Shown: positions 35,901 through 36,872 of the stretch, one piece after another
How the letters are laid out: every line of letters begins with the position of its first letter
Position numbering within the stretch: position 1 is the first letter of the stretch
DNA from: Thiomargarita sp.
GTDB taxonomy: Bacteria; Pseudomonadota; Gammaproteobacteria; Beggiatoales; Beggiatoaceae
DNA: 41,847 nt
Direction of reading: 5' to 3'
Assembly: GCA_022729575.1 (NCBI GenBank)
Contig: DZAL01000032.1
Location: 1 to 41,847, forward strand
Position numbers and translations under genes: made by a program
Notes under the pieces: generated by a model
What the model saw: only the letters and a program-made list of their open reading frames with translations
What the model was told of the DNA's origin: nothing
Databases searched by the model: none

Positions 35901-35950
35901 AACGGTGGATTGATGGGGTGTTGGCGCGGAAGAAAAGTCTCCAAATCTGA
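32939..35950 (+). CDS. DUF1156 domain adenine-specific DNA methylase (COG1743-like)
   Basis: This 1003-residue DNA methyltransferase opens with [40 protein letters not shown], diagnostic of DUF1156. The S-adenosylmethionine motif is [20 protein letters not shown] (about 162-181). A zinc-ribbon-like region has Cys254/Cys257 and Cys337/Cys339/Cys340. The catalytic motif [10 protein letters not shown] is at about 570-579. Six REP palindromes lie in frame: three in tandem at residues 285-313 (inside the zinc-ribbon region), then near 394, 454 and 595. The last of these follows the catalytic motif by only about 15 residues. The stop TGA is inside a REP. With the helicase and the DUF499 ATPase it makes a methylation-linked defence module. 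Confidence 0.88.
   Translation: [1003 protein letters not shown]
33793..33877 (+). repeat. Three tandem in-frame REPs inside the methylase gene
   Basis: Forward copies at 33793-33817, 33823-33847 and 33853-33877 repeat with an exact 30-bp period, giving three ten-residue units of the form LESK(P/S)S(D/A)LDR. Some carry uncompensated changes in one arm (ACCTTCAGAT, TCTTCAGCTT). The copies therefore look older or less constrained than the pairs in the helicase. Confidence 0.93.
34117..34141 (-). repeat. In-frame REP inside the methylase gene
   Basis: A reverse copy starting GGCCAAATCTGAAG is read AKSEDLDSS. The frame avoids the TGA that lies in another frame of the same orientation. Confidence 0.92.
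34300..34324 (+). repeat. In-frame REP inside the methylase gene
   Basis: A single forward consensus copy, read LESKSSDLD, lies near residue 454 between LARLVRDNP and [10 protein letters not shown]. Confidence 0.93.
34722..34746 (-). repeat. In-frame REP just after the methylase catalytic motif
   Basis: A reverse copy of the GTAC variant, read TNLKICTP, begins about 15 residues after [10 protein letters not shown]. It has the same compensated ends as the copy at 30690-30714. Confidence 0.92.
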
Positions 35951-36070
35951 AGATTTGGACAGCGCTGGAGTCCAAATCTTCAGATTTGGGAAGCCAGCCC
36001 GTCCAAAGCTGAAGATTTGGACTCCAACGCGGTTCAACGTGTACTGGAGTCCAAATCTTTAGATTTGGAC
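35938..36070. repeat. Cluster of four REPs after the methylase gene
   Basis: A truncated reverse copy (about 35938-35962), in which the methylase TGA stop lies (35948-35950), is followed by a forward copy (35967-35991). A reverse copy with one unpaired base (36001-36025) and a forward copy with a TT centre (36046-36070) come next. The last is the left end of a 127-bp direct repeat. Confidence 0.9.
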
Positions 36071-36161
36071 AAAGGAAATAGTTATGTCATATAAAAGACA
36101 TCTCCATACACCTATTCATTTTTTCTGTGATGATTCGCCTTATTTCATCACTTCTGCCATT
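36035..36161 (+). repeat. 127-bp direct repeat, copy 1 (REP plus RAYT 5' end)
   Basis: This is identical base for base with 36229-36355, at an offset of 194. It contains the forward REP, the ribosome site AAAGGAAATAG and the first 26 codons of the RAYT gene. Perfect identity points to a very recent duplication. Confidence 0.93.
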
Positions 36162-36275
36162 GAAGACAAGTCTCCAAATCTGAAGATTTGGACTCCAACG
36201 TGGTTCCCAAATCTGAAGATTTGGACTCCAACGTGTACTGGAGTCCAAATCTTTAGATTTGGACAAAGGAAATAG
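36084..36275 (+). pseudogene. Truncated 5' copy of the RAYT transposase gene
   Basis: The first 26 codons are identical to the intact RAYT gene at 36278 (to ...FFCDDSPYFITSAI). After 36161 the frame runs into REP palindromes, read PNLKIWTP twice and GVQIFRFG once, before stopping. It lacks the HYH and tyrosine motifs, so it cannot be active. It looks like a by-product of recombination or transposition between REP copies. Confidence 0.85.
36172..36264. repeat. Three REPs between truncated and intact RAYT genes
   Basis: Reverse copies at 36172-36196 and 36205-36229 are followed by a forward copy with TT centre at 36240-36264. The forward copy ends 13 bases before the intact RAYT start. Confidence 0.92.
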
Positions 36276-36355
36276 TTATGTCATATAAAAGACATCTCCA
36301 TACACCTATTCATTTTTTCTGTGATGATTCGCCTTATTTCATCACTTCTGCCATT
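36229..36355 (+). repeat. 127-bp direct repeat, copy 2 (REP plus RAYT 5' end)
   Basis: Identical to 36035-36161. This copy continues into the intact RAYT gene. Confidence 0.93.
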
Positions 36356-36817
36356 TATGAGAAGCGTCCATTATTGGCTGACGAGTACATAAAAACCGAG
36401 TTGTTGCGAACTATCCAACAGGTTTTCAATGATAAAGGTTGGCGACTCAACGATTGGGTGATTTTAAATAACCATTATCACCTCTTGGGCTATAGTCGCA
36501 AAGGTGAGAATTTATCGAAAATCATGCAGAATATTCACCGGCAATCTGGTTTTTTAATCAGTCAACGGACTCATTGTGAAAAACCCGTATGGTGGAATTA
36601 TTGGGATTATTGCCCGCGAGATGAGAAGCAATATTTGGTACGCCAAAACTATTTGTTCAACAATCCGATTAAACATGGGTACGTGACTAATTTGATGGAT
36701 TATCCGTTTTCTAGTTTTCTGGGGTATTTTGAAAACCTGGGAAGGGAGTATTTAGTTAAGCAATTTCGGGAGAATCCGGGATATAAGGACCTTAAAATAG
36801 AGGAAGATGATTTTTAA
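36278..36817 (+). CDS. REP-associated tyrosine transposase (RAYT, Y1/HUH family)
   Basis: This 179-residue single-strand DNA transposase belongs to the TnpA-REP group. The HUH motif is NNHYHLL (His66, His68), and the catalytic tyrosine is Tyr125 in RQNYLFNNPIKHGYV, matching the RAYT pattern Y-x-x-N-P-x-K. The length is normal and the frame intact. REP palindromes of the GGAG-headed family flank it on both sides (36240-36264 and 36823-36872). That is the classic configuration in which a RAYT recognises the tetranucleotide head and hairpin of its own REPs. It sits inside the helicase-methylase-DUF499 module. Activity is likely but not proven. Confidence 0.92.
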   Translation: MSYKRHLHTPIHFFCDDSPYFITSAIYEKRPLLADEYIKTELLRTIQQVFNDKGWRLNDWVILNNHYHLLGYSRKGENLSKIMQNIHRQSGFLISQRTHCEKPVWWNYWDYCPRDEKQYLVRQNYLFNNPIKHGYVTNLMDYPFSSFLGYFENLGREYLVKQFRENPGYKDLKIEEDDF

Positions 36818-36822
36818 CATCA

Positions 36823-36872
36823 GTCCAGATCTGAAGATTTTGACACTGGAGTCCAAATCTTCAGATTTGGAC
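36823..36872. repeat. REP pair after the RAYT gene
   Basis: A degraded reverse copy (36823-36847, GTCCAGATCTGAAGATTTTGAC) abuts a consensus forward copy (36848-36872). The ribosome site of the next gene (GAGGA, 36876-36880) starts 4 bases after the hairpin. Confidence 0.88.

Follow-up and report, generated by a model that had tools for sequence, protein, structure and literature searches.

The window analysed here, a stretch of 41,847 nucleotides from a Thiomargarita sp. genome, carries a RAYT, a TnpAREP-like HUH single-strand nuclease, amid a dense group of REPs and among the genes of a defence operon, and it raises the question of why repeats that are found across the genome are concentrated at this place and inside protein-coding genes. 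As the probable explanation, we favour a REPtron that belongs to a GGAG class of its own, members of which lodge in defence operons and at times spread REPs into their surroundings.

The RAYT gene (36278-36817, plus strand) is an intact open reading frame of 179 amino acids that matches the curated family NF047646 (REP_Tyr_transpos) with 102 bits against a cut-off of 80. Alignment places its Y125 on Y115 of E. coli TnpAREP (chain 4ER8), and the HUH pair H66-x-H68 and the catalytic tyrosine Y125, which the earlier note had read from the sequence, were confirmed by position; the equivalents of all three residues are invariant in 70 members of the clade defined below. As that note had also stated, REPs lie on both sides of the gene. 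A pattern search of the window placed a REP with a TGGA head and a hairpin directly upstream (36239-36264, plus strand) and a degenerate inverted REP, whose head is lost, directly downstream (36823-36844, minus strand), so that inverted REPs, at 36243 (+) and 36823 (-), flank the gene and belong to a family with several hundred genome copies. The same search found an exact REP further downstream (36847-36872, plus strand) and a REP cluster upstream (35938-36226; cores at 35939, 35970, 36001, 36049, 36172, and 36205). A 142-nt duplication (36035-36176 / 36229-36370), which the earlier note did not mention, is the source of a truncated 5' fragment of the RAYT (36084-36182, plus strand; codons 1-33, 88% identical). 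Classification as an IS200/IS605 insertion sequence was considered and rejected; those elements have many near-identical copies and a Y-x-x-x-Q motif, whereas the window RAYT is present as one full copy and one fragment and has Y-x-x-x-N. Judged from these sequence features, the protein is predicted to bind and cleave REP DNA.

With regard to the REP head, the earlier note had taken a GGAG-type tetranucleotide to be established for RAYTs, but published work gives GT[AG]G, i.e., GTAG or GTGG (PMC2817692, PMC6006769, PMC8266576), and the word GGAG is absent from these three open-licence papers, although GGAG REPs may be described elsewhere; GGAG is supported here by data instead. Among 112 RAYT loci examined, some of them duplicates, in which the foot of a flanking hairpin was sought within 350 bp, GGAG was found at the foot in 59 of 84 clade loci (53 of 78 without duplicates), the clade comprising RAYTs at least 45% identical to that of the window, and in 0 of 28 more distant RAYTs. 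The reversed control of this search gave 4 of 112 loci, and GTAG did not rise above its own control. Stems vary between clade loci while GGAG(T) is constant. In the window, (C)TGGA is the conserved head, and since the stem behind it may begin with G, the last G of GGAG can also be assigned to the stem as its first base; the claim that GGAG directly precedes the hairpin thus holds as to the presence of the head, but is refined as to its extent. Hosts of the GGAG clade include Gammaproteobacteria, Desulfonema and other deltaproteobacteria, Chloroflexi, Calditrichaceae, KSB1, an anammox genus, and UASB270. Assemblies of the family members Thiomargarita nelsonii, Parabeggiatoa, Marithrix, and Thioploca have matching RAYT loci, which identifies the window's host as a relative of the giant sulfur bacteria. 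High genome counts of each host's own stem (434 + 327 in Desulfonema magnum; 190 + 199 in UASB270, where the Desulfonema type was counted only 3 times) confirm the REP nature of the repeats in two other hosts. In a Chloroflexi bin (L039:186-6907), a RAYT with 57% identity has flanking REPs with a stem nearly identical to that of the window (GGAGTCCAAATCTTTAGATTTG); transfer of the pair between phyla and mis-binning are both possible.

The change of head is paired with a change in the residues that would read it. The motif WWNYWDYC is nearly invariant in the 70 clade members, whereas most other RAYTs have WQxRFWEH, and the positions equivalent to E. coli Q95, E100, and H101 are W, D, and Y in 69-70 of 70 clade members, as compared to Q, E, and H in 17-18 of 23 others. 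In E. coli TnpAREP, Q95, E100, H101, and R104 are among the residues that handle GTAG (PMC6006769); where the canonical guide-reading set is W94, Q95, E/D100, H/R101, and R104, the window RAYT has W, W, D, Y, and R, and the Q95W and H101Y changes are clade-wide. As head (GTAG to GGAG) and reading residues (Q95 to W, H101 to Y) changed together, guide recognition is directly testable with a few oligonucleotides. The system shares with GT[AG]G REPtrons (Nunvar 2010, PMC2817692; Quentin 2018, PMC6006769; Corneloup 2021, PMC8266576) a one-tyrosine HUH nuclease of about 180 amino acids, inverted flanking hairpin repeats with many genomic copies, a tetranucleotide 5' of the stem, and a CT beside the head; it differs in the GGAG head (TGGA/GGAG in the window, GGAG clade-wide), in having WWNYWDYC for WQxRFWEH, in the frequency of defence-gene neighbours in its class, and in its heavy local copies inside genes. 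Membership in subclass 2.8 (Quentin 2018) was rejected. The NHYH motif and a W followed by an aromatic residue or His are common to both, but of NHYH, W[YH], YIHYNP, and GT[AG]G REPs only NHYH fits; the cyanobacterial subclass 2.8 has YIHYNP, Y or H as second residue, a proline-rich N-terminus, and GT[AG]G, whereas the window RAYT, which is not cyanobacterial, has YLxxNP, W as second residue, no proline-rich N-terminus, and GGAG. No subclass in the published table (Quentin 2018, PMC6006769) matched the motif set of the GGAG clade.

With up to 5 mismatches allowed, the REP core (GTCCAAATCTTCAGATTTGGAC) was found at 36 places in the window. Of these copies, 32 fall within 29-41 kb, to either side of the RAYT, which bears out the peak around the gene, and the fall-off outside 29-41 kb, that the earlier note had described. 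REPs are genome-wide and not restricted to the RAYT locus; with up to 3 mismatches, the core gave 376 + 384 matches in 6.57 Mb, some copies being counted on both strands because the REP is near-palindromic, and 0 in the reversed control. A genome density map, proposed in the earlier note, was run as pattern counts plus sampled stretches of 520 kb, in which 60 copies (0.115 per kb) were found, with a maximum of 8 in any 12 kb. The density of 2.7 per kb between 29 and 41 kb is 23 times this background, and the 32 copies observed in 11.7 kb, against 1.35 expected, are far beyond chance; together with the sampled maximum, this indicates that the local density is real. Among the exact 25-mers listed genome-wide, about 100 in number, 11 fall in the hma operon. 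The window RAYT is likely the cognate enzyme of this REP, as the earlier note had proposed, since the REP was not found near the other seven RAYT-like loci of the genome, relatives of the RAYT have GGAG hairpins of their own, and the head is clade-wide.

Local and dispersed copies differ in form. Dispersed copies in the sampled contigs are mostly dimers with 47-nt spacing and TTGGA heads, whereas local copies stand alone or in closer pairs and have CTGGA heads (CTGGA:TTGGA, 20:6 locally and 12:43 among dispersed copies), and the two may therefore differ in origin. TnpAREP of E. coli and Stenotrophomonas cuts at a CT beside the REP (PMC8266576); because the CTGGA heads fit this cleavage site, the local form may be the direct substrate or product of the RAYT. 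Pseudomonas REPINs (Bertels and Rainey 2011, PMC3116915) are likewise inverted dimers in clusters beside a single-copy RAYT, and the mostly dimeric dispersed copies of the window's genome resemble them; those REPINs are almost wholly extragenic (14 of 1,067 16-mers overlap genes), whereas the single REPs and short pairs of the window sit inside genes near the RAYT. It is likely that REPs spread locally from the RAYT locus. Another conceivable source of the peak is the duplication, by ordinary means, of DNA in which a few REPs were already present. In its favour are the 142-nt duplication described above, a second one (37908-37996 / 37997-38085), through which an inverted REP pair is repeated in tandem, as two copies of 89 nt that lie before hmaC and at its 5' end (37912-38052), and a 30-nt triplet in hmaB; as most copies lack common flanking sequence and lie in unique gene sequence, we consider duplication extremely unlikely as the explanation of the peak.

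The dense stretch consists of one operon, in the order hmaA, hmaB, RAYT, two small ORFs, and hmaC, all on the plus strand. PADLOC models identified hmaA (29171-32734; 625 bits) as encoding a SNF2-type helicase, hmaB (32882-35950; 409 bits) a DUF1156 adenine methyltransferase, and hmaC (37996-40872; 435 bits) a DUF499 AAA+ ATPase. The three genes, found together and all near full length, are those of the Hma defence system, here split by the RAYT and the two small ORFs and with REPs inside. The small ORFs (36807-37346, whose 5' end runs through the REPs downstream of the RAYT, and 37336-37860) had no family match in profile searches including PADLOC. Of the 32 local REP copies, 20 lie in open frames of at least 150 codons, 13 of them inside the bodies of hmaA and hmaB, as compared to 2 of 60 sampled copies elsewhere in the genome. 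In-frame cores are located at 30667, 30690, 31516, 31539, 31945, 31984, and 32482 in hmaA and at 33796, 33826, 33856, 34117, 34303, and 34722 in hmaB; two more cores of hmaA, 29173 and 29217, lie at its 5' end, probably before the true start, and a further core (32906) is at the 5' end of hmaB. The reading frames of hmaA and hmaB are unbroken by REPs and their helicase and methyltransferase motifs are intact, which is consistent with an Hma system that continues to function.

No REPs were found in the hmaA of a same-family genome (G018; 63% identical) or in the hma operon of a second relative (G350). Their absence from the former is informative because G018, which appears to be a Parabeggiatoa genome (its RAYT locus L096 behaves as the Parabeggiatoa locus L018), holds hundreds of such REPs. 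REP-encoded stretches map to variable loops or to insertions. In comparison with the hmaA of G018 and G350, a single REP pair forms a clean 18-amino-acid insertion after Gln-Leu-Glu, and other REPs substitute loops of similar length. As several hma REPs bring no net length gain over the homologues, simple insertion does not explain all of them, and a search for a nucleotide-level empty site found none, with no syntenic one in the same-genus genome G001. In-frame short palindromes in loops or linkers are also known from intragenic REPs and Rickettsia palindromic elements (Di Nocera 2013, PMC3733652), from which the window REPs differ by their concentration in a RAYT-bearing operon and their GGAG head; that study reports no dedicated transposase for its CGTC type. 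All eight plus-strand REPs in gene bodies read (L/V)ESKxSxLD, a single hydrophilic frame although three frames are open, and this regularity might suggest that REPs were retained for the benefit of the operon, either as mRNA hairpins that tune expression or as useful loop peptides. REP effects on mRNA are established in enterobacteria. Peptides and stems nevertheless differ in UASB270 and Methylococcales, homologues retain the same genes without REPs, and the frame bias is equally expected from purifying selection alone, so that we give a benefit of this kind little credence.

Under the favoured explanation of a lodged, locally seeding REPtron, the RAYT would recognise single-stranded REP through the GGAG guide 5' of the hairpin, cut at a dinucleotide close by (CT in those relatives that have been characterised), and attach REP strands at new positions. 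From its place between hmaB and hmaC of the phage-defence operon, with which it is probably co-transcribed, it would have seeded REPs mainly into this operon; copies that broke a defence gene would have been lost, which may be why those remaining are in frame and mostly in loops. An operon acquired with REPs already inside would also give a peak, which would then mark a transferred piece from a donor with REP-rich genes instead of local spreading. The dense stretch indeed stops exactly at the operon ends (29.17 and 40.88 kb), the last REP (40861-40882, minus strand) being at the 3' end of hmaC; the GC content of hmaB is 0.501 as compared to 0.438 in the genome sample; and ychF of the same-genus genome G001 is in another setting, with no hma behind it. 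On the other hand, the same REP type is present across the whole genome and in related genera and is therefore native, the hmaA of the same-family genome G018 has no REPs, and even with acquisition the seeding would have occurred around some RAYT; overall, we judge acquisition of a REP-laden operon to be unlikely.

The earlier note had called a link between REP spread and a defence module unusual; the link is real, but it recurs at other loci. When the neighbours at 33 clade loci were scanned, irrespective of REPs in them, PADLOC matches with E <1e-20 were found at 18, including Type I and IIG restriction-modification, C3a139 HKD+Snf2, DrmD-like, MADS, and Zorya/Dpd-like systems, among others. 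Large ORFs made of REP arrays in three loci (L035, L048, and L050) were left out as probably not genes. As controls, ten genes beside other RAYTs and ten long genes from the window's genome gave one TPR and one GlgB match, neither of which was counted as defence; even with both counted, Fisher's test gave p of about 0.001, an enrichment that is approximate because large neighbours came first, PADLOC includes generic restriction-modification models, and controls were per protein. In UASB270 (L064:586-12536), a GGAG RAYT lies between a DruE-like gene, a DpdE-like helicase, and a DrmMI-like methylase, with 31 REPs in 12.5 kb against 0.58 expected; 19 of them are in genes, and REPs are in frame in three large defence genes (Druantia/Dpd/DISARM-like). 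A Methylococcales bin, with a IIG enzyme, a C3a139 helicase, and 9 REPs, likewise shows the in-frame pattern. A RAYT in a defence operon with in-frame REPs thus recurs in at least two unrelated genomes, and a locus with a DrmD-like gene (L038) may be a third repeat of the pattern.

A GGAG RAYT adjoins a C3a139 HKD+Snf2 helicase five times (L058, L060, L083, L009, and L070), with a IIG enzyme on the opposite side in three of the five. This recurrence beside restriction-modification and SNF2-helicase genes might suggest that the RAYT serves the defence systems as a functional component instead of lodging among them; we consider this very unlikely, since gene order and strand vary among loci, including those with C3a139, many GGAG RAYTs have no defence neighbour, and the systems concerned (Hma, IIG, Type I, and Druantia-like) are mutually unrelated. 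For a RAYT that lodges in such operons, a broader proposal, to which we give slightly less than an even chance, is that GGAG RAYTs form a separate nuclease class that spreads across phyla via restriction-modification and defence operons and reshapes the proteins of these operons with in-frame REP peptides seeded beside the RAYT gene. The proposal touches the question of how RAYTs persist as single non-jumping genes and move between lineages; if the class travels inside often-exchanged defence operons, these would provide a route for RAYT movement. The hma operon further illustrates to what extent protein genes can take up palindromic insertions and still keep their frame.

Peppering of the neighbourhood is the exception, as most clade members have REPs only within about 1.5 kb of the RAYT; around the closely related RAYTs of Thiomargarita nelsonii (L017) and Parabeggiatoa (L018), there is no such peppering beyond about 0.5 kb. 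Within the family, the presence of a RAYT does not fully predict how many REPs a genome has, as some relatives (G042, G047, G002, and G052) hold hundreds of REPs and no close RAYT in the assembly; copies therefore outlast the enzyme or drafts miss it, and loss, incomplete assembly, or RAYT-independent upkeep may each account for such relatives. Across the family, an intact RAYT and REP number are linked only loosely. Decayed RAYT remnants, 58-70% identical and with stops, were observed in another genome with over 300 REPs (G049:C154:5700-6172).

Other repeats and gene pairs were observed in the window. An inverted repeat between hmaA and hmaB (32751-32849; 42-nt arms, 98%) has about 100 matches in the same-genus genome G001 and hence represents a MITE-like family of its own, and a dispersed repeat past hmaC (41356-41425) has a 93% identical copy in that genome. 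Between 900 and 27930, the window has at least 7 ATPase genes, each beside a small partner gene and interspersed with housekeeping genes; one such pair (25899-27930) matches the AriA/AriB (PARIS) models.
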